Assembly (NCBI GenBank): GCA_902789665.1
Contig: CADAOY010000008.1
Coordinates: 1-61,360 of the forward strand
Source: an uncultured Lachnospiraceae bacterium
GTDB lineage: Bacteria > Bacillota > Clostridia > Lachnospirales > Lachnospiraceae
DNA length: 61,360 nt
Direction: 5' to 3'
Shown: one piece after another, positions 18,843 through 32,222 of the stretch
Layout of the letters: the number at the start of each line of letters is the position of its first letter
Numbering within the stretch: position 1 is the first letter of the stretch
Notes under the pieces: generated by a model
What the model saw: the letters and a program-made list of their open reading frames with translations, nothing else
What the model was told of the DNA's origin: nothing
The model's database searches: none
Translations under genes and position numbers: made by a program

Positions 18843-20768
18843 ATGGATTATGTACTTCATTACAATATAGCGGCAATTGTAATAAGCCTTCTGGTAATTG
18901 TATTATTCTTTTCCAGAAAGTTCTTTCCTGTTGCCTCAAACAAGTACTATGCTTTCATGGGCGTATTCGTTGCATTTAGTTCATTTTGCGACATATTATG
19001 CTCTTTAAGTTTTATGGGTAAAATAAATTATAATCCTGTAAGTTTTAGTCTGATTTTCGGCGGCTATTTTGCCGGTTCTATTTTGTGCGCACTTTCTTTT
19101 GCACTCTATACCATGGCTTTGGTTGAGGATAAAATGGGTTCTGATGCCCAGAGTATCAAAATCATTATCGCCGCGCTTTCCGTATTCGCCATTATTACTT
19201 ATCCGTTATCGCAGATTACAAAGATGTATTTTTACATGGATAACGAAGGGTATCACCATGGTCCGTTTATCTGGAGTTTCTACGGAATACTTGCAGTCGG
19301 AATGGCTATAGTGCTCTACACCCTTGTAAGATACGGCAAGTTCTTAACCAAGAGACAGAGGGCGGCGGCATATTTTGCTCTTATTATTGTAATATTATCC
19401 ATAGTATTTCAGGCAATATTTGATAAGATTCCAATCAGTAATTTTGCAAACGCGCTTGTTTTTATGGTAGTGCTTCATACCCTGCAAAATTCCAGGGATT
19501 ATACCAATTACAAGTTGTCCCTTTTTGATGATACAGCCTTTTATCTGCAGATTGATAATTATATCAGGGCCAATAAGAGTTTCTATGTGCTCTGCTTTGA
19601 TTTAGAGGGCGTTGGATTCTTAGAGCAGACCATGGGACCGGAGGCAAGAACGGAACTTCTGGAACATTTCGGAAGAGAATGTAAGGAAAATCTTGAGGGC
19701 ATGCTTTTCTATCTTGGTGGTACAAGGTTTGCATATATCTTTGATTCAACAAGAAAAGAAGCTATTGAGAAATACGCCGAATGGCTTAACTGGCGAGTAA
19801 TGACGCCTTACAGGGTTAAGGGCATAAAGGTTACTCTTTCCATAAGAATCGCCGTGGCTGAGTATGGAAATGAGATTAATGACAGAGAGACATTCATTAA
19901 CAGTTTAAGATATGCCTTAAGGGAAGCAAAGAATAAGGCTTCTCAGGAAATCGTGTGGGCGAGTGATAAGATGATTGAGTCTTATCAGAGATATAGGGAT
20001 ATTGTTCATGTCTTAAAGAAACAGATAGTTGAGAAGAGTTTTATGGTTTTCTATCAGCCGATTTACTGCGCAGCCACCGGGAAATTCTCGGCAGCAGAGG
20101 CTCTTATCAGATTATATGATGAGAAGATGGGATTCGTTCCTCCTGATGAATTCATTCCAATCGCGGAGAGCAATGGCCTGATTATTGAGATAGGCGAGAT
20201 TGTCTTTAGAAAGGTTTGTGATTTCTTATCTCATGAGGGCAGCGAGCTTGGAATCGATTATATTGAGGTTAACCTTTCCATGCTTCAGTGTATGCAGGAA
20301 GATCTTCATAAAACCTTAATAGAAATAATGGATGAATATGGTATTTCCTATGACAAGATTGATTTTGAAATTACTGAGACTTTCTCCCTGACAGACCAGA
20401 ATATTCTTATTAAAAATATGAATGCCCTGATTTCAGCAGGTTCGTCCTTTGCAATGGATGATTATGGCACAGGATTCTCCAATACGGAATATCTGATAAA
20501 GTATCCGTTCAAACTGGTGAAGCTGGACAAAATCTTCATCTGGGATGCCATGAAAGATGATAAAGCCATGAAAATACTCGAGCATACAGTGGCTATGATT
20601 AAGAGCCTTGATATTCAGATAGTAGCCGAAGGTGTTGAAACAAAGGAGCAGGCGGGGCTGCTTATGGGCATGGGCTGTGATTTTCTCCAGGGGTTCCTTT
20701 ATTCTAAACCTCTTCAGAAAGAATTATATATACAGTTTTTAAAAAATGACGGGAATGTGAATCAATGA
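18843..20768 (+). CDS. membrane c-di-GMP phosphodiesterase (degenerate GGDEF + EAL)
   Basis: 641 residues. An N-terminal block of about seven TM helices (residues 5-210) acts as a likely membrane sensor. A GGDEF-like domain follows at 215-375 with GGTRF in place of GGDEF, so it cannot make c-di-GMP and may bind GTP. The EAL domain at 385-635 keeps the catalytic set: AEALIR, EVNLS, DFEITET, MDDYGTGFSN, VKLDK, VAEGVET and QGFLYSKPL, so it should degrade c-di-GMP to pGpG. It lies two genes after a cyclase. The last 4 bp overlap the exonuclease gene (ATGA). Confidence 0.92.
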   Translation: MDYVLHYNIAAIVISLLVIVLFFSRKFFPVASNKYYAFMGVFVAFSSFCDILCSLSFMGKINYNPVSFSLIFGGYFAGSILCALSFALYTMALVEDKMGSDAQSIKIIIAALSVFAIITYPLSQITKMYFYMDNEGYHHGPFIWSFYGILAVGMAIVLYTLVRYGKFLTKRQRAAAYFALIIVILSIVFQAIFDKIPISNFANALVFMVVLHTLQNSRDYTNYKLSLFDDTAFYLQIDNYIRANKSFYVLCFDLEGVGFLEQTMGPEARTELLEHFGRECKENLEGMLFYLGGTRFAYIFDSTRKEAIEKYAEWLNWRVMTPYRVKGIKVTLSIRIAVAEYGNEINDRETFINSLRYALREAKNKASQEIVWASDKMIESYQRYRDIVHVLKKQIVEKSFMVFYQPIYCAATGKFSAAEALIRLYDEKMGFVPPDEFIPIAESNGLIIEIGEIVFRKVCDFLSHEGSELGIDYIEVNLSMLQCMQEDLHKTLIEIMDEYGISYDKIDFEITETFSLTDQNILIKNMNALISAGSSFAMDDYGTGFSNTEYLIKYPFKLVKLDKIFIWDAMKDDKAMKILEHTVAMIKSLDIQIVAEGVETKEQAGLLMGMGCDFLQGFLYSKPLQKELYIQFLKNDGNVNQ

Positions 20769-24588: not shown

Positions 24589-27500
24589 ATGAAAAACGAA
24601 TCAATAAACAGTTATGGTAAAATGTTACTTTTTACAACAGTATGTATTGTCGTGGATATTGTAGGCAGCCTGATTGCCAGATTTTACGATGTTCCACTTT
24701 GGATGGACTGTATAGGCACATGTTTCGCAGCATATGCTTTTGGCCCTGTGGCAGGTATGCTGGTTGGCGTTACAACCAATATCATTCTCTGGATAGTAAA
24801 GGGAACCGTGGTATGGTATTTAATTCCGGCAGCAGTTGTTGGTCTTACGGTAGGAATCGCAGCAAGAAAGAAGTGGTTTGAGGATTTCTATCATACTATG
24901 GTAATTGCGACACTGACTACTATTTTGGTAGTTGCGACGGCCATTCCGGTTAATTTTATTTTTAATGGTGCAAGAACAGGTAATGCCTGGGGTAATGCAC
25001 TTGTGGATTTCTTCCTTGAAAGAAGATATGGCGTATTTTCTTATCTGATTGGTCAGTTTTATGTGGATTTTTTTGATAAGACACTTACGATTATTTTCTT
25101 ATTCCTGGTTATTCATTTTAGAAGAAAACTTAAACAAGATAAAGAAAGTCATACAAGCACCAATGAAATGGTTGATAATCTTCAGGATGATATTATTAAC
25201 AGAGACAGGGAAAAAGCCAAGAGAATTCATGATGCAGTAGAGGAAGTTACAGAGCAGATTAGAAAAGAAGATGAAAAAGCAGCGGATGATGCTGAAAAAA
25301 TCAAGACAATGACCAAGATTGTCATTCTGCTTTTGATTCCATCCCTGATTATTGGCTCACTTAAAATAAATGTCAGCGCAGCTGATGATCCGCAAATTGT
25401 AAATGATTACGGTGCTTATATTCAGACTGTATATGACAACAGAAATGGTCTTCCTTGCGGCGAGGCCAATGATATATGCCAGACACCTGATGGTGTTCTC
25501 TGGATAGGAACTTATGCAGGTCTTTACCGTTATTCAGGTAAAGAGTTCCGTCCAATGACTCAGTTTGAAAGCGTAAGAAATGTTAACTGCCTTTATACTG
25601 ATTATGAAGGAAGAGTATGGATTGGTACCAATGACAGCGGTGTCGCACTTATGATTGATGGAGAAATCATAGATGTTATTGATACTGAGGATGGACTTCC
25701 ATCTAACTCAATTCAGTGTATTCACGAAGACTGCAGAGGTGATTACTATATCGGAACCACAGAGGGTGTGGTTGTATATACTTTATCGGAAGGTCTTGAT
25801 AAAGCCAACGAATTCTTAACCATCTCCAATCCTGTATCCATTGATGCAGATGAGTTTAAATATACTTATATCGTAGATTCAACAGGAGCCGTATATGTAA
25901 TTGAGGACAGAAAGATTGTTCAGAAACTTGTATCCAGTAATAAAGCATATACTGCAGTACAGGTTGAGTCAATGAGCGAGATTTATATTGCAACATCCAA
26001 TAATACCATAGAAAAATTTGCATATAATTTAAGCGGTCTCGTTCTTGAAGAAGAATATCCTTGCGAAGGTTTGTCAAATATCAGAAGAATCGTTGTAAAA
26101 AAAGATACTGAAGATAAGTTCTTCTGTGCTGATAACGGCGTTGCATATGTGGATGCAAATAGTGAATATCATCTTTTAAATACAAATGAGTTCGATAATT
26201 CAATAGAGAATATGATAGTGGACTATCAGGGCAACTTATGGTTCACATCTTCAAGACTTGGTCTTCTTAAGTTCTCACGTTCTGCGGTTTCGGATATTTT
26301 TACATCTTCAGGAACAGACAAAGCGGTAGCTAATGCAGTATGTGAGTGGCAGGGCAATATGTACTGCGGTACTGACCAGGGCTTGAGCGTTATAGATGAC
26401 AAGGAAAAAGTATCAATTTATAACAGCCTTACAGATTATTTCTCAGGGGACAGAATCCGTTCCATGTGCGTGGATGATGACGATAATCTCTGGATATGTG
26501 TCTACAAAAAGGGTGTATATAAAGTAACCAATACGGGCGCTACGGACAGAAGCGGCATCATTGTTACCCAGGTAGGACAGTCTGCCGAAGATGCCATAAA
26601 AGATATGGAGAATCCGGACAATACAAATGGTCCTATAGAGGAAATAACTGTTGATGATGAAGTGGTTGATGAAACAGCAGTAGAGGATGCCGACACAGGC
26701 GCAATTGCAATAGAAGAAGATTATTTCGATGCATACGAAGGCTTATATTATCAGCAGGGTGAGTATGCCGTAACAGAATATAACGTAGAGAATGGTCTCT
26801 TCGGTTCCAAAGCCAGAGTAGTTATCAAACTTAATGATGGCAGAGTTGCAGCAGCAGGTGATGGCGGTGTTACAATATTTGCCAAAGATGGCACCGTAAC
26901 TAACGTGGAAGGTATGGAATACCTTGCACAGGTTCTGTGCTTATGTCAGGATTCAGACGGCCGTATATATGCCGGTACTGATGGCAGCGGTATAGTAGTT
27001 ATCAAAGATGGAATAATTGAAAGAAAGATTACTTCAGAAGGTGGTCTTTCATCAGATGTAATTCTTAAGGTTGTACCATCACTTGATGGCAAATACTTCT
27101 ATGTAATTACAAGTAATGAACTTGATCTTCTTTATAAAGATGGAACAATAAAGGGTATTAACAACTTCCCTTATTATAATAACTACGATGTTGTTGAAGG
27201 CACCAATGGCAAAATCTACGTCTCCGGAAGTTCGGGTGTATATGTAGTTAATCTCTCGGATGTATTAGAGAACAGATATGGAATGCAGTATGACCTTCTT
27301 AATGTTGAATGGGGATTTATATCATCGCTTACAGCTAATGCATCCAATTACTTAAATCAGGATGAACAGTATTATGTATGTTCAAATCAGGGTATATATT
27401 CATTTAATCTAAATGATTACAAGCCTGGAAATCAGAATTACAGAATGCAGATAGCAGCTGTATATGTTGATGGTAATCCTGTAAAAATTGAAAGAGACGG

Positions 27501-28665
27501 AGCTTTGCTCATTCAGAGAGAATCAGAGAAACTGGTTATTGTACCGGAAGTAATTAATTATACTCTGGATGATCCGTATGTAAGTTATATGCTTGAAGGC
27601 TTTGATAAGGAGCCTACAGTTCTTCCTTTAAGAGATTTAACTGAAGTAACATATACCAACCTTCGAAGTGGTGACTACGCTTTTGTAATCAGTGTTTTAT
27701 CTTCAGATAAGGCATCAATTATGGAAGAAATAAAATATGATACCACTAAGGAAATGGCTATTCAGGATACACAGGTATTTATGATATATCTGGTAATCGG
27801 AGCGGCATTAATAAGCGCCTGGATTACAGCCTTAATTGTAGCTACCTGGGTTAGGGAAACAATTAAGAAGCAGAAAGAGCAGATCGAATTTGTTGAGAAA
27901 CAGGTTAAGATGGGTAATGAAACCATCATGACAATTGCGAGAGCTCTCGATGCCCGTGACCCGAATACAGCCCACCACAGTGAAAGAGTTGCCATTTATT
28001 CTGTGCTTATTGCTGAGCAGCTTGGCATGGATAAGGAAAAAATTGAAAGTCTTCGTAAGACTGCACTTCTTCATGATATTGGTAAGATAGGTATTCCTGA
28101 TGAAATTCTTAAGAAACCGAAAGGGCTGACAGATGACCAGTATCGCATCATGAAGACTCACGTAACCAAAGGTGCTGAGATTCTTAGTAATCTTACGTCT
28201 GTTGATGGCGTTGTGGAAGGTGCGCTTTATCATCATGAAAAATATGATGGAACCGGTTATGTGAAGGGACTTAAAGGTGAAGAGATTCCTTTAAATGGTC
28301 GTATTATCGGTGTTGCCGATGCATTTGATGCCATGACAGCTAACAGAGTATATCGTCAGCAGCTTGATATTGGCTATGTGCTGAACGAATTTGAAAAATT
28401 CAAAGGCAAGCAGTTTGACCCACAGATTGCAGATATTCTTCTTAACTTGATTCATACCGGAGTTATTGACTTAGAGAAGTTATATCCTCCAAGACCAAAG
28501 GATCCTGATTCAGGAGAAAAGAAGGAAGAGTCCAGGGAAGAGACTAAGCCTGAAGAGAAGAAAGAAGAAAACAAGGACGAAACTTCGGATAAGGCTGATA
28601 ATAAAGCAGAAGAAAAAACTGAAGAAAAAACAGAAGAAAAAGCTGATGAAAAGGAGGGCAAGTAA
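24589..28665 (+). CDS. membrane HD-GYP protein with ECF-like TM domain and beta-propeller
   Basis: 1358 residues. Order: five TM helices (about 10-180) resembling an ECF-transporter S-component-like sensor (PLWMDCIGTCFAAYAFGPVAG); charged coiled coil (185-240); TM at 242-262; extracytoplasmic propeller with at least eight Reg_prop repeats such as LWIGTYAGLYRY and VWIGTNDSGV (270-985); Y_Y_Y domain (about 990-1045); TM at 1061-1086; HD-GYP at 1105-1285 with HHSERV, LLHDIGKIGIPDEIL and HHEKYDGTGY; Lys/Glu-rich tail from 1304. HD-GYP proteins degrade c-di-GMP. The GYP itself reads GYV, so activity may be altered. Stop overlaps the next start. Confidence 0.88.
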   Translation: MKNESINSYGKMLLFTTVCIVVDIVGSLIARFYDVPLWMDCIGTCFAAYAFGPVAGMLVGVTTNIILWIVKGTVVWYLIPAAVVGLTVGIAARKKWFEDFYHTMVIATLTTILVVATAIPVNFIFNGARTGNAWGNALVDFFLERRYGVFSYLIGQFYVDFFDKTLTIIFLFLVIHFRRKLKQDKESHTSTNEMVDNLQDDIINRDREKAKRIHDAVEEVTEQIRKEDEKAADDAEKIKTMTKIVILLLIPSLIIGSLKINVSAADDPQIVNDYGAYIQTVYDNRNGLPCGEANDICQTPDGVLWIGTYAGLYRYSGKEFRPMTQFESVRNVNCLYTDYEGRVWIGTNDSGVALMIDGEIIDVIDTEDGLPSNSIQCIHEDCRGDYYIGTTEGVVVYTLSEGLDKANEFLTISNPVSIDADEFKYTYIVDSTGAVYVIEDRKIVQKLVSSNKAYTAVQVESMSEIYIATSNNTIEKFAYNLSGLVLEEEYPCEGLSNIRRIVVKKDTEDKFFCADNGVAYVDANSEYHLLNTNEFDNSIENMIVDYQGNLWFTSSRLGLLKFSRSAVSDIFTSSGTDKAVANAVCEWQGNMYCGTDQGLSVIDDKEKVSIYNSLTDYFSGDRIRSMCVDDDDNLWICVYKKGVYKVTNTGATDRSGIIVTQVGQSAEDAIKDMENPDNTNGPIEEITVDDEVVDETAVEDADTGAIAIEEDYFDAYEGLYYQQGEYAVTEYNVENGLFGSKARVVIKLNDGRVAAAGDGGVTIFAKDGTVTNVEGMEYLAQVLCLCQDSDGRIYAGTDGSGIVVIKDGIIERKITSEGGLSSDVILKVVPSLDGKYFYVITSNELDLLYKDGTIKGINNFPYYNNYDVVEGTNGKIYVSGSSGVYVVNLSDVLENRYGMQYDLLNVEWGFISSLTANASNYLNQDEQYYVCSNQGIYSFNLNDYKPGNQNYRMQIAAVYVDGNPVKIERDGALLIQRESEKLVIVPEVINYTLDDPYVSYMLEGFDKEPTVLPLRDLTEVTYTNLRSGDYAFVISVLSSDKASIMEEIKYDTTKEMAIQDTQVFMIYLVIGAALISAWITALIVATWVRETIKKQKEQIEFVEKQVKMGNETIMTIARALDARDPNTAHHSERVAIYSVLIAEQLGMDKEKIESLRKTALLHDIGKIGIPDEILKKPKGLTDDQYRIMKTHVTKGAEILSNLTSVDGVVEGALYHHEKYDGTGYVKGLKGEEIPLNGRIIGVADAFDAMTANRVYRQQLDIGYVLNEFEKFKGKQFDPQIADILLNLIHTGVIDLEKLYPPRPKDPDSGEKKEESREETKPEEKKEENKDETSDKADNKAEEKTEEKTEEKADEKEGK

Positions 28666-29873
28666 TGAACAGATTTTACAGACAGTTAACATTAGTGCTT
28701 GCGTGCCTCATATGTATAGCAGCTTCAATAGTATATATTCATTTCTTCCCACAAAAGGAAACGGGCTTAAACGAAATCAAAATTGGATATATATATGATG
28801 GCGATATTGCCAATCCTTATACCTATAATTTTGCCAAGGCTGAATATATATTAGAGGATAAGTATCCGGGCAAGGTGGAAAGTATAGTATACAGTAATAT
28901 TCCGGAAGAAAAGGATGTGGAATATGCCAAAAAGTTAGCAGATGCCGGCTGCAATATCATTTTCTTAAACAGCTATGCATCTGATGACGGATTAAAAGAA
29001 CTTGCTCTTAAATATCCTGATGTTCAATTCTGTCAGGCAGCAGGTGATAATCCGAATCTTGACGTAAGATACAGTAATTATCATACATTCATGGGCTCAA
29101 TATATGAGGCCAGATATATTACCGGAGTAATTGCCGGAATGAAATTAAAAGAGATGATTGATAATGGTGTAATAACCACCGAGGATGCAAAACTTGGCTA
29201 TATCGCAGCTTATTCCTGTGCTGATGTAATATCAGGTTATACTGCATATTATCTTGGAGCAGCATCTGTTGTTCCTGAGGTTACAATGGAAGTTACCTAT
29301 ACAGGCAGCTGGGCAAATTATCATCTTGAATATGACAAGTGCAGAGCGTTAATCAATGATGGCTGTGTTATCATATCCCATCATACTGATACATCCGGTT
29401 CTGCAATAGCCTGCGAAGATGCCAGAATTCAGGGTAAAGAGGTATACCATATTGGTTATAATCACAGTATGGAAGATGTGGCACCTACAGCATCCCTGGC
29501 ATCCTGTATGATAAACTGGAAGCCATATATTGTTGGCTCAGTTGAAGCAGTTATGCTTGGTAAGGATATTGAGAAATATGTGTCCGGTAACGTGCATGGC
29601 AAGGACATTGGTGGAGGCTATTCAGAAGGATGGCTGGAAATCACCGGCTTTAATGAACTTAATGCAGCGCCTGGAACAAAGGAAAAGATTGAAGAACTGG
29701 AAGATGCCTTTATATATAATAGAATTAAGGTATTTAAAGGTGACTACATCGGAGTTAATCCGGATGATCCGTCAGATACAATTGATTTAAATAACGGATA
29801 TGATGAATGCGCAAACTCTTCTGCAGCTTCCTTTAATTATGTGCTTAAGGGTGTTATCACAATAGTAGAATGA
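28665..29873 (+). CDS. BMP/Med-family substrate-binding protein
   Basis: 402 residues. An N-terminal uncleaved-looking TM or signal segment (LTLVLACLICIAASIVYIHFF), without a lipobox Cys, is followed by a BMP-family binding fold: IGYIYDGDIANPYTYNFAKAEY, NIIFLNSY, FCQAAGDNP and IISHHTDTSGSA. BMP proteins (such as Med, PnrA) bind nucleosides or similar small molecules. It overlaps the HD-GYP gene by one base (TAATG), and no ABC permease or ATPase follows, so it may act as a sensor partner of the HD-GYP protein rather than a transporter subunit. The Nudix gene overlaps its stop. Confidence 0.8.
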   Translation: MNRFYRQLTLVLACLICIAASIVYIHFFPQKETGLNEIKIGYIYDGDIANPYTYNFAKAEYILEDKYPGKVESIVYSNIPEEKDVEYAKKLADAGCNIIFLNSYASDDGLKELALKYPDVQFCQAAGDNPNLDVRYSNYHTFMGSIYEARYITGVIAGMKLKEMIDNGVITTEDAKLGYIAAYSCADVISGYTAYYLGAASVVPEVTMEVTYTGSWANYHLEYDKCRALINDGCVIISHHTDTSGSAIACEDARIQGKEVYHIGYNHSMEDVAPTASLASCMINWKPYIVGSVEAVMLGKDIEKYVSGNVHGKDIGGGYSEGWLEITGFNELNAAPGTKEKIEELEDAFIYNRIKVFKGDYIGVNPDDPSDTIDLNNGYDECANSSAASFNYVLKGVITIVE

Positions 29874-30325
29874 AAGAAACCACACTTTGTTACATAAAAA
29901 AGAATAATGAATATCTTTTTATGCTGCGTAATAAAAAAACTAATGACCCAAATGGCGGCAAATATATCGGAGTTGGCGGAAAACTTGAAAAAGGCGAAAC
30001 GCCTCTTCAGTGCGTCATAAGGGAGATAAAGGAAGAAACAAATCTTAAAGTTATTAGTCCAACATTAAGAGGAGAGATTTATTTTTACTCAGATACCTAT
30101 GATGATGAGAAAATGTATCTCTTCATAGCGGATAAATATGAAGGCGATGTGGATTACGACTGCAATGAAGGCACCCTAAAGTGGATAAGTAAGGAAGATA
30201 TCATGGGACTTAACCTTTGGGAAGGGGACAGAGTCTTCCTAAAAGAATTACTCGAAAGCGATGATTACATTAATTTAAGTCTCTGGTATGAAGGAGATAA
30301 ATTAGTCAGGACAAAACGGGGGTAA
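29870..30325 (+). CDS. Nudix hydrolase (MutT-like)
   Basis: 151 residues. The Nudix box GGKLEKGETPLQCVIREIKEET starts near residue 42 and has the full set G, E, REIKEE. Such enzymes hydrolyse nucleoside diphosphate derivatives, for example 8-oxo-dGTP, with Mg2+. The start overlaps the BMP gene by 4 bp (ATGA). The precise substrate is not predictable. The linkage to a BMP protein that may bind nucleosides is suggestive only. Confidence 0.88.
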   Translation: MKETTLCYIKKNNEYLFMLRNKKTNDPNGGKYIGVGGKLEKGETPLQCVIREIKEETNLKVISPTLRGEIYFYSDTYDDEKMYLFIADKYEGDVDYDCNEGTLKWISKEDIMGLNLWEGDRVFLKELLESDDYINLSLWYEGDKLVRTKRG

Positions 30326-30331
30326 GGAAAA

Positions 30332-31519
30332 TTGAAATACAACACAAGACTGGTACTTATGTCCATAGCCATAATCGTGGTGCCAATCGCTCTTTTACTC
30401 ATAACCTTCACCCTTTATTCGGTGGATACGGGAGCCAGCATAAATATCTCGGAGGATGCAGTAATATTCAGTAAGGAAACTTTTATCGCCATTGTGGTTT
30501 CCCTCTTTGCGGTCCTTACCATAACCAGCGTTGGAATAACCATCTGGTACAAAATCTCCGTCTTCAAACCTCTCTCAAGACTTGACGAAGCAATCAGGCA
30601 GATTGAAGAAGGCGACCTTGATACACCCCTTGAAAGAGAATCGGGAGAACTTGGTAATCTGTTCGATGATTTTGAAAATATGAGACTTACTCTTAATGAT
30701 TCCATCGACACACTAATTGAGTATGACAGATTCGGAAGAGAGTTGGTAAGCAACATATCTCATGACCTTCGTACACCAATAACTTCCATTAAGGGTTATG
30801 TGGAAGGTATAATGGATAATGTTGCAGATACTCCTGAGAAAAAGGAAAGATATATTAAAACCATATATAAAAAAGCCAGGGATATGGATCAGCTGGTTAA
30901 TGAATTAAGCGTTTTCTCCAAGATAGACAACGACAACATAACATATAATATGGAAGTGATACCTATATGCGGGTATTTTGACGATTGTGCTGATGAACTT
31001 TCCATGGATGCTGAATCACATGGTTTTGATTTTGTATATGATAATAAATTGGACCGTGATGTTCAGGTTGAGATGGACCCTGAGCAGATGACGAGAGTTA
31101 TTAATAATATAGTAAATAATTCTTTTAAGTATGCGAAGGAAGACAATAATAAGATTGAGTTAAAACTCTTCATGGAAGACGAGAATGTAGCCATATCTTT
31201 TAAGGATAATGGCAAGGGAATCAGTCCGAAAGATGCGGAGAGAATCTTCGAAAGATTCTACAGAACTGATGAATCAAGAGGCTCAGCCACAGGCGGAAGC
31301 GGCATAGGTTTATCAATAGTTCAGAAGGTCGTTGAGGCCCATGGCGGCGTTGTATCTGCAAATGGAGAACTGGGAAAAGGCCTGGAAATCAAAATCATCC
31401 TGCCTTTGTATGATGCGAATTCCACAGATAAGAAGCATAAAGTTAAGGATGAGAATGTAAGATCATCCAAGTTAAATAATATATTAAATAAAAAATATCC
31501 GAGAGGAAATAAAAAATAA
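30332..31519 (+). CDS. sensor histidine kinase
   Basis: 395 residues. The TTG start follows AAGGAA; no better ATG exists before residue 10. Two TM helices (about 8-28 and 55-75) bracket a short outside loop. HAMP at 78-130, HisKA with NISHDLRTPITSIKGY (phosphorylated His) near 150, HATPase with MTRVINNIVNNSFKYA, FKDNGKGISP and GGSGIGLSIV to about residue 355. A basic tail ends it. The partner response regulator follows after 10 bp. The signal is unknown. Confidence 0.92.
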   Translation: MKYNTRLVLMSIAIIVVPIALLLITFTLYSVDTGASINISEDAVIFSKETFIAIVVSLFAVLTITSVGITIWYKISVFKPLSRLDEAIRQIEEGDLDTPLERESGELGNLFDDFENMRLTLNDSIDTLIEYDRFGRELVSNISHDLRTPITSIKGYVEGIMDNVADTPEKKERYIKTIYKKARDMDQLVNELSVFSKIDNDNITYNMEVIPICGYFDDCADELSMDAESHGFDFVYDNKLDRDVQVEMDPEQMTRVINNIVNNSFKYAKEDNNKIELKLFMEDENVAISFKDNGKGISPKDAERIFERFYRTDESRGSATGGSGIGLSIVQKVVEAHGGVVSANGELGKGLEIKIILPLYDANSTDKKHKVKDENVRSSKLNNILNKKYPRGNKK

Positions 31520-31529
31520 GGAGGCCACA

Positions 31530-32222
31530 ATGTCAAAAATTCTCATAGTTGAAGATGAATTGGAAATTGCGGAATTAGAGAAAGATTATCTTGAGAAGGA
31601 AGGTTTTGAAGTTACCATTGAAGGGGATGGTAAAAAGGGACTTGAGAAAATTCTCACCAAGGAATTTGATTTAGTACTTCTTGATATCATGCTCCCTAAT
31701 ATGAGCGGACTTGAAATATGCAGGGAAGCACGTAAGAATGTGAATATTCCTATCATCATGGTCAGTGCACGTAAGGAAGAAAATGATAAGGTTAAAGGCC
31801 TTGAGTGCGGAGCTGATGATTATATCACCAAGTCCTTCAGCCCAAGTGAACTTGTGGCAAGAGTCAAGGCTCATCTTCAGAGATATGACAGACTTGTTTC
31901 CGGAAATCTTGAGAATGATATCATTGAGGTTAAAGGTCTTAGAATCGACAAGACTGCTCACAGAGTCTTCGTTGATGGCGTGGAGAAAATCTTCACCAAT
32001 AAGGAATTTGATTTACTTACCTTCCTGGCTCAGAATCCAAACAGAGTTTTCACTAAAGAAGAATTATTTAAAACCATCTGGGAAATGGACCCGTCAGGAG
32101 ATATTGCCACAGTAACTGTACATATTAAGAAAATCAGGGAGAAAGTTGAGACTGATTCACAGAATCCTGATTATATTGAAACCATCTGGGGTAAGGGATA
32201 CAGATTCAAGGCACAGGTGTAA
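31530..32222 (+). CDS. OmpR-family response regulator
   Basis: 230 residues. Receiver at 1-115 with acidic pair VEDE, phospho-acceptor LLDIML near residue 53 and the switch Lys in YITKSFSP (usual TKPF has Ser for Pro here). A winged-helix DNA-binding domain follows at 130-228 (NKEFDLLTFLAQNPNRVFTKEELF, GDIATVTVHIKKIREK). AAGGAGG lies 8 bases upstream. It forms an operon with the kinase just upstream. Targets unknown. Confidence 0.93.
   Translation: MSKILIVEDELEIAELEKDYLEKEGFEVTIEGDGKKGLEKILTKEFDLVLLDIMLPNMSGLEICREARKNVNIPIIMVSARKEENDKVKGLECGADDYITKSFSPSELVARVKAHLQRYDRLVSGNLENDIIEVKGLRIDKTAHRVFVDGVEKIFTNKEFDLLTFLAQNPNRVFTKEELFKTIWEMDPSGDIATVTVHIKKIREKVETDSQNPDYIETIWGKGYRFKAQV

Follow-up and report, generated by a model that had tools for sequence, protein, structure and literature searches.

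The 61,360-nucleotide stretch of DNA analysed here (the window; contig CADAOY010000008.1 of GenBank assembly GCA_902789665.1, from an uncultured Lachnospiraceae bacterium) carries a gene for a multidomain membrane sensor whose stop codon overlaps the start codon of a gene for a binding protein of the BMP family. The locus raises the question of whether the two products form one receptor and, if so, for which ligand. Here, we report a comparative analysis of the two genes, whose order is conserved and whose products probably act jointly as a purine or nucleoside receptor in these bacteria.

The gene pair and its conservation

Both open reading frames lie where an earlier annotation made from the window alone (the first-pass annotation) had placed them, and reading of the junction (GTAATGAAC) bears out the overlap it described, the TAA stop of the sensor (28663-28665) and the ATG start of the BMP gene (28665-28667) sharing 1 nucleotide. 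The features of the pair are as follows.

24589..28665, + strand: sensor gene, 1,358 amino acids (S-component-like module, linker, transmembrane helix, Reg_prop propeller, Y_Y_Y-like domain, transmembrane helix, HD-GYP domain, charged tail)
24604..25152, + strand: membrane module of S-component fold, residues 6-188, six-helix core (NCBIfam match, AlphaFold2, Foldseek)
25153..25317, + strand: helical linker, residues 189-243, predicted from the topology to be cytoplasmic (AlphaFold2 model)
25318..25374, + strand: transmembrane helix, residues 244-262, connecting to the extracellular region
25411..26538, + strand: first half of the Reg_prop propeller, about residues 275-650 (Pfam; 4a2l match over residues 287-470)
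26551..26778, + strand: acidic insert separating the two halves of the propeller (about residues 655-730), lacking conservation across 34 orthologues
26779..27468, + strand: second half of the propeller, about residues 731-960
27580..27717, + strand: Y_Y_Y-like domain, residues 998-1043
27781..27837, + strand: transmembrane helix, residues 1065-1083
27937..28428, + strand: HD-GYP domain, residues 1117-1280 (HD_5; 4mcw match, E 1.1e-41)
28477..28662, + strand: Glu/Lys-rich C-terminal tail, about residues 1297-1358
28665..29873, + strand: BMP-family binding protein gene, 402 amino acids
28671..28748, + strand: N-terminal membrane anchor helix of the BMP protein, residues 3-28 (AlphaFold2 model)
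28773..29744, + strand: two-lobed binding domain with a purine-type pocket (Y52, S103, D187, W216, H240, and D242)
29745..29870, + strand: C-terminal extension with the clade residues Y361, G363, P366, D374, L375, Y392, and L394

Most of the sensor architecture given by the first-pass annotation held. Reg_prop (84.6 bits; cut-off, 20.4) and HD_5 (131.1 bits) pass their Pfam cut-offs, as does Bmp on the 402-residue protein (86.8 bits; cut-off, 24.1), and Y_Y_Y is marginal, falling 0.2 bits short (26.4 bits; cut-off, 26.6). The solved propellers matched by the sensor sequence are those of the two-component sensor proteins 4a2l, 3v9f, and 3ott, which we take to be propellers of hybrid two-component systems (HTCS).

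A set of 397 genomes of the family (G labels) was queried with the BMP protein and with the sensor. The BMP query returned 30 places, the window included, at E ≤ 3.9e-98, a partial match at a contig end (1.7e-82), and then matches at 2.6e-75 and weaker; neighbourhoods were examined for 30 BMP places besides the window and for 50 of the weaker matches (18 + 20 + 12). The sensor lies 5' of the BMP gene in all 31 family genomes with this BMP subfamily, the window's included. A script found the BMP gene immediately after the sensor in 28 of the 30 non-window loci; if the earliest available start codon is assumed, the two genes overlap by 4 nucleotides in 18 of these 28. Direct reading of locus L125 (genome G450) also places the BMP gene after the sensor, overlain by a longer opposite-strand reading frame, and in G180 the pair is split over two contigs, with the BMP gene start adjoining the sensor on the second. 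The sensor query gave 36 matches at E ≤ 1e-110 among the 397 genomes; the sensors of G260 and G456 (1,031 to 1,033 amino acids) are without the N-terminal module.

A second set of named loci (L labels) consists of the best 80 of 385 relatives from a contig scan with the C-terminal half of the clade's BMP protein (28-sequence alignment), and it overlaps the genome set (e.g., L210 = G038 and L213 = G397). A sensor frame stands directly before the BMP gene in 76 of these 80 loci; three begin at a contig end, and one, that of Treponema zioleckii, is reordered (BMP, a 341-amino-acid gene, and then the sensor). All three sensor regions lie in one frame at 68 of the 76, the other 8 comprising 6 contig-end cuts and 2 loci (L202 and L247) where the regions are spread over two successive frames. 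Order and tight spacing are maintained at a BMP identity to the window of 44 to 55% (48 sequences), and adjacency is retained across many genera and in Treponema. A search for the pair in other genomes, which the first-pass annotation had put forward as a check, therefore finds it conserved (31/31 family genomes with the BMP subfamily and 76/80 named loci), and this conservation places the arrangement beyond chance.

Six of the 80 loci are labelled Treponema, with two named strains (T. zioleckii kT3 and Treponema sp. JC4). The Treponema copies do not form one clade in the BMP tree or in the sensor tree, and L225 is closest to L206 in both, which suggests that the two genes moved together. At four Treponema loci (L200, L229, L234, and L235), an extra membrane protein of 341 to 349 amino acids adjoins the pair. 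A third core gene was considered and rejected, since the largest neighbour family besides the pair occurs in only 15 of the 80 loci (the families were not all annotated); by our own reading, that family is an ABC-exporter-like protein.

The binding protein and its probable ligand

The AlphaFold2 model of the BMP protein (mean pLDDT, 94.5; pTM, 0.89) has a helix at residues 3-27 that precedes the two-lobed domain. A lipobox expression matched 1 of 30 sensor-linked BMPs versus 38 of 46 transporter-linked BMPs; the single match is the window's own protein and is doubtful, lying inside the hydrophobic core of the anchor helix. At 17 positions, a residue shared by 90% or more of 79 sensor-linked BMPs occurs in fewer than 25% of 45 transporter-linked ones. 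Twelve of the 17 lie at 303-396, where Y361, G363, P366, D374, L375, Y392, and L394 have this distribution, and these C-terminal residues, specific to the clade, mark a candidate docking surface.

In the family, genes for an ATPase and two permeases typically come after those for transporter-type BMPs. The first-pass annotation had noted no transporter genes near the pair, and a Pfam scan of the window's neighbourhood, covering 12 proteins between 18.8 and 34.1 kb, agrees. It had also named an ABC transporter (ATP-binding cassette) encoded elsewhere as a finding that would count against its proposal; as far as the BPD_transp_2 permease family (PF02653) goes, none was found in the window's genome (2.25 Mb; 91.5% complete). 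That genome is one of 6 of the 31 pair genomes without PF02653 (91.5 to 99% complete); the other 25 have some such permease. The two BMP-type permeases gave no match on either strand of the 80 named loci, whose sequence extends 3 kb or more beyond the BMP gene in 60 cases, and ATPase matches occur in 18 of the 80, the strongest in L235. An ordinary ABC importer subunit was rejected as the leading explanation, given the loss of the lipobox and the lack of a permease match in the 80 loci and of PF02653 in six pair genomes; the sensor-linked BMP protein departs from the usual importer type. In some genomes of the same genus, an HD-GYP gene lies 2 to 3 kb from a transporter-type BMP gene; this was rejected as a second link, since those BMP genes precede ABC-type genes where the contig extends far enough.

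By sequence, the closest solved relatives of the BMP protein are 3s99 and AtzT. The same two lead the fold matches of the model (AtzT chains; TM-score of 0.84 to 0.88 by target), followed by binding proteins with guanosine, adenosine, riboflavin, uridine, inosine, and thymidine. AtzT contacts guanine through Tyr45, Ser97, Glu165, Trp194, Asn218, and Asn220, with a Kd of about 110 nM for guanine, and adenine was modelled in 3s99 (excerpts of PMC6834077). The equivalent residues in the window's protein are Y52, S103, D187, W216, H240, and D242. Among the 79 sensor-linked BMPs, Y52, W216, and H240 are each present in 79, D242 and E/D187 each in 78, and S103 in 64; the same residues prevail in the 45 transporter-linked BMPs. 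Since pocket and folds are of the AtzT/3s99 type, our best guess at what is bound is a purine base or a nucleoside. The nucleoside suggested by the first-pass annotation is in this way supported and refined to a purine-base pocket, and the S-components nearest to the sensor's membrane module lie mostly beside nucleoside-salvage genes, as described below.

The membrane module and the HD-GYP output

The N-terminal module had been described as a five-transmembrane domain resembling an S-component of energy-coupling factor (ECF) transporters. The fold stands and the helix number was an under-count, as the AlphaFold2 model of sensor residues 1-262 (mean pLDDT, 89.2; pTM, 0.70) shows a six-helix core. 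In a Foldseek search of the PDB, ECF S-components take the first 19 places (probability, 0.96 to 1.00), at E-values that are weak (2.4e-3 to 0.34, none ≤0.001); other folds reach a probability of at most 0.11 among the 50 matches listed. The NCBIfam model ECF_S_CD3073 (NF045596) matches residues 13-176 (E 3.7e-17) with 62.6 bits, under its cut-off of 180, and identity with the CD3073 equivalog was rejected on that score. ECF_trnsprt (PF12822; 22.8 bits; cut-off, 30.7) and 5TMR (PF07694; 19.8 bits; cut-off, 24.6) also fall under their cut-offs.

Stand-alone relatives were ranked with a profile built from 49 sensor modules among 24 S-component loci, which came from search results and are not a random sample. 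The nearest, L295 (163 bits) and L299 (157 bits), both adjoin a nucleoside phosphorylase-family gene and ECF genes. Among the ten nearest (L295, L299, L290, L288, L255, L289, L256, L294, L293, and L297), a gene for a nucleoside hydrolase or phosphorylase is found within 1.5 kb in nine cases, counting L255 and L256, which lie in stretches that supplied the query genes. L276 and L277 have IU_nuc_hydro and EcfT-type neighbours, and L277 also has a PNP_UDP_1 gene (Pfam). Stand-alone S-components related to CD3073 at L276, L277, L288, L289, L295, and L299 share operons with EcfT/EcfA and with genes for nucleoside hydrolases or phosphorylases; they probably belong to nucleoside or nucleobase ECF transporters.

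The core positions N/D23, P36, D40, G43, T44, D163, and K164 are largely common to the module and stand-alone S-components; W38, G135, G155, and F161 are invariant in the 49 sensor modules and rare in the stand-alone proteins. At the AXXXA positions of helix 1, small residues occupy both sites in 1 of 49 sensors (T/V in the window) versus 13 of 24 stand-alone proteins; eight stand-alone S-components that adjoin EcfT have PxxxA/G there, so the comparison is suggestive at most. Modules of this kind are also found on other HD-GYP proteins, a further one of them encoded in the window's genome, so the module is a general sensory part in these bacteria. The additional protein (L275:5250-7397, contig 10) has 715 amino acids, with an S-component-like N terminus and HD-GYP. 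In 22 of 31 genomes of the same genus, the S-component profile matches a frame of 716 to 774 amino acids, whose other domains were not all checked. G032 encodes an S-like/propeller protein without an HD-GYP match.

The HD-GYP domain of the window's sensor carries the motifs HDIGK and HHEKYDGTGYV, the final P being replaced by V. In 102 sensors pooled from overlapping sets, an HDxGK-type motif is present in all and HHExxDGxGY in 101. Flagellin genes occur in 30 of the 31 pair genomes (the exception is 68% complete). An even sample of 299 family genomes holds 156 with flagellin, among them all 23 pair genomes that it contains, leaving 133 of 276 non-pair genomes; the difference between 30/31 and 133/276 fits control of motility by cyclic diguanylate (c-di-GMP).

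Around the pair, the window holds a second c-di-GMP-related gene, for an EAL-domain membrane protein (18843-20768), 4 kb upstream of the sensor. A NUDIX gene (29870-30325) overlaps the BMP stop by 4 nucleotides (ATGA) and is followed by a histidine kinase (30332-31519) and an OmpR-type regulator (31530-32222). No neighbour family resembling NUDIX, kinase, or regulator is prominent at the other loci, where neighbours were not annotated gene by gene.

How the pair may work and what it resembles

We put at roughly 60% the probability that the two genes encode one membrane receptor for a purine or nucleoside that controls an HD-GYP phosphodiesterase, in the manner of NspS-MbaA. The BMP protein would be tethered by its N-terminal helix at the outer face of the membrane, its cleft predicted from the pocket to bind a purine base or nucleoside. 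Depending on its ligand state, it would dock on the propeller/Y_Y_Y part or on the S-component-like module, and it would feed no ABC importer. The first-pass annotation had proposed that the BMP protein presents a small molecule to the propeller to control c-di-GMP; the present results support this in part, as the surface touched may instead be that of the S-like module. The module, kin to nucleoside-type ECF S-components, may itself bind a related ligand in the membrane. The signal would then travel through a transmembrane helix to the cytoplasmic HD-GYP domain, whose motifs are present and which would degrade c-di-GMP. As for direction, our guess, of low certainty, is that ligand occupancy raises phosphodiesterase activity and favours swimming.

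NspS-MbaA, from Vibrio cholerae and Sinorhizobium meliloti, is likewise encoded by overlapping genes, and the ligand state of the binding protein sets the activity of the c-di-GMP enzyme (excerpts of PMC8967002 and PMC9993111). It thus has in common with the present pair that the gene for a binding protein overlaps one for a membrane c-di-GMP enzyme. NspS, however, binds polyamines and MbaA is a GGDEF-EAL protein, whereas here a BMP-family purine-type protein is joined to an HD-GYP sensor that adds a propeller and an S-component-like module. Because the binding-protein family and the output domain differ and two sensory parts are extra, we regard the pair as working like NspS-MbaA without being a member of that system.

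Several observations weigh against this reading. Gene adjacency falls short of proving contact between the BMP protein and the sensor. Among full-layout sensors at E ≤ 1e-110, 31 of 34 have a BMP neighbour and 3 (G039, G315, and G399) have none; the G039 genome yielded no BMP-like protein at E ≤ 1e-3, and a more remote sensor with this layout, that of G034 (E 2.2e-96), has no BMP gene adjoining. The BMP protein is therefore not indispensable to every such sensor: linkage is strict for the BMP clade, nearly strict for the sensor clade, and not strict for all sensors of similar layout. Correlation between the BMP and sensor trees (Mantel r, 0.84 over 69 pairs) lacks an unlinked-gene control and so counts as weak evidence. 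At 3 of the 17 clade-specific positions, the window's own BMP protein has a residue other than that of the clade, and the S103 position falls in a gap in 12 of the 79 aligned sensor-linked BMPs. One of the 102 sensors fails the HHE pattern, and the GYP proline, V in the window, is kept in 53 of the 102. The flagellin comparison (Fisher p, 3e-8) is uncorrected for descent. A nucleoside hydrolase or phosphorylase lies within 1.5 kb at 11 of the 24 stand-alone S-component loci overall, with none matching at 13, and the true CD3073-type S-components (9 of 9 above the cut-off) have no matching nucleoside gene within 1.5 kb, so only the nearer stand-alone proteins carry a hint of the ligand. At L235, a 519-amino-acid ATPase resembling that of BMP transporters (221 bits) lies about 5 kb after the BMP gene, near the end of the sequence covered at that locus.

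It is possible, though we hold it only tentatively, that the sensor takes two independent inputs, the propeller binding an oligosaccharide as in HTCS proteins and the BMP protein adding a purine, for a combined response to plant or microbial biomass. The propeller matches to two-component sensor proteins are consistent with this, and rumen or gut samples figure in many of the titles of the 80 records; set against it, no gene family besides the pair recurs in more than 15 of the 80 loci. Like HTCS sensors such as 4a2l, the present protein has a Reg_prop propeller, a marginal Y_Y_Y-like stretch, and a transmembrane helix. It differs from them in its output, HD-GYP rather than a histidine kinase/response regulator, and in having an S-like module and a partner binding protein in addition.

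A handing of the ligand by the BMP protein to the S-like module within the membrane, which would make the receptor a chimera of ABC and ECF importers with the propeller as scaffold or second input, seems to us unlikely. Both lineages are tied to purines or nucleosides, and the module keeps the common core residues from N/D23 to K164 alongside its four sensor-specific ones (49/49); the S-like module is, however, also present in sensors without a BMP partner, which argues that the BMP protein is not needed in general. We know of no case of hand-over between BMP-type and S-component-type parts, which further lowers its probability. Equally doubtful is the wider proposal of a receptor assembled from ABC-type BMP and ECF-type S-component parts, in which the BMP protein would deliver the purine or nucleoside and c-di-GMP and motility would be set by breakdown products of extracellular nucleic acids.

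That the sensor acts alone with the BMP protein as a co-transcribed passenger, or that the HD-GYP domain is inactive and the pair regulates something else, is improbable. Sensors with no BMP neighbour (3/34) favour a passenger, against which order and tight spacing survive deep divergence of the BMP sequence; HD-GYP motifs intact in nearly all of the 102 sensors argue against inactivity. Least probable is an ordinary importer subunit with its permease elsewhere and an incidental position beside the sensor, since the shared pocket of transporter-type BMPs, the PF02653 permeases of 25 pair genomes, and the L235 ATPase are outweighed by the six pair genomes without PF02653, the lost lipobox, the clade-specific C-terminal residues, the lack of any BMP-type permease match in the 80 loci, and an adjacency retained across many genera and Treponema.

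Returning to the joint receptor, three other known systems resemble parts of it. In Bacillus subtilis, a lipoprotein, Med, is reportedly required by the membrane sensor kinase KinD (to judge by the title of a 2011 report by Banse), and the comK activator 2hqb, a relative of Med, ranks 16th among the fold matches of the BMP model. KinD, a histidine kinase whose sensor domain is of the Cache type, is not known to have the propeller, S-component fold, or c-di-GMP domain of the present sensor. S-component folds also occur in 5TMR sensor kinases, where the AXXXA docking motif is lost (Partipilo and Slotboom 2024; excerpts of PMC11109136). Like those kinases (PMC11109136, excerpts), the present sensor has a membrane S-component fold that would serve for sensing, and its residues at the EcfT-docking positions seem largely changed as well. 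Unlike them, it has no helix ahead of H1 in the AlphaFold2 model, lacks the NXR motif between helices 1 and 2 (0/49 modules), and places the module before a transmembrane helix and an extracellular propeller; the main text of PMC11109136 mentions no HD-GYP, propeller, or nucleoside. The BMP protein shares its closest fold and pocket with AtzT and 3s99, and it differs from AtzT, which is exported and thought to serve transport (PMC6834077, excerpts), in being membrane anchored and sensor linked.

Other BMP genes in the family also stand beside signalling genes. At L072 and L166-L170 (G034, G006, G019, G030, G027, and G047), tandem BMP-BMP genes without a lipobox immediately precede a protein with two predicted transmembrane helices, which is a hybrid histidine kinase in the two cases checked (L072 and L166); L166 adds HD-GYP and GGDEF response regulators. 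These loci look like a second, unrelated BMP-based receptor. At L070 and L159, a BMP-family gene lies beside a chemoreceptor with sCache_3_3 and MCP signalling domains, a possible case of BMP-dependent chemotaxis. The two kinds of locus suggest repeated recruitment of BMP proteins for sensing within the family. In the window's genome, the second half of a 652-amino-acid protein encoded on contig 2 (L002:508-2466) also holds a partial BMP-like domain, and many further genomes of the order give BMP matches in frames of about this size.

Our literature search, covering titles and abstract openings, found no published description of the sensor-BMP gene pair. To our knowledge, sensors combining a Reg_prop propeller with HD-GYP in these bacteria have no assigned signal. 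According to excerpts of a 2022 review (PMC8846402), only SBP_bac_3 of the 27 families in the binding-protein clan (Pfam v34) had been studied in c-di-GMP networks. The pair is present in Lachnospiraceae bacterium NC2004, Butyrivibrio sp. XPD2006, T. zioleckii kT3, and Treponema sp. JC4, and also in ATCC 27753, listed as Lactobacillus rogosae. It offers a testable ligand class, purines or nucleosides, and a testable mechanism, a tethered binding protein acting as co-receptor. The gene pair is carried by many gut and rumen bacteria. Its components seem to derive from two kinds of nutrient importer, and it suggests that, within one system, pieces of importers twice became receptors.

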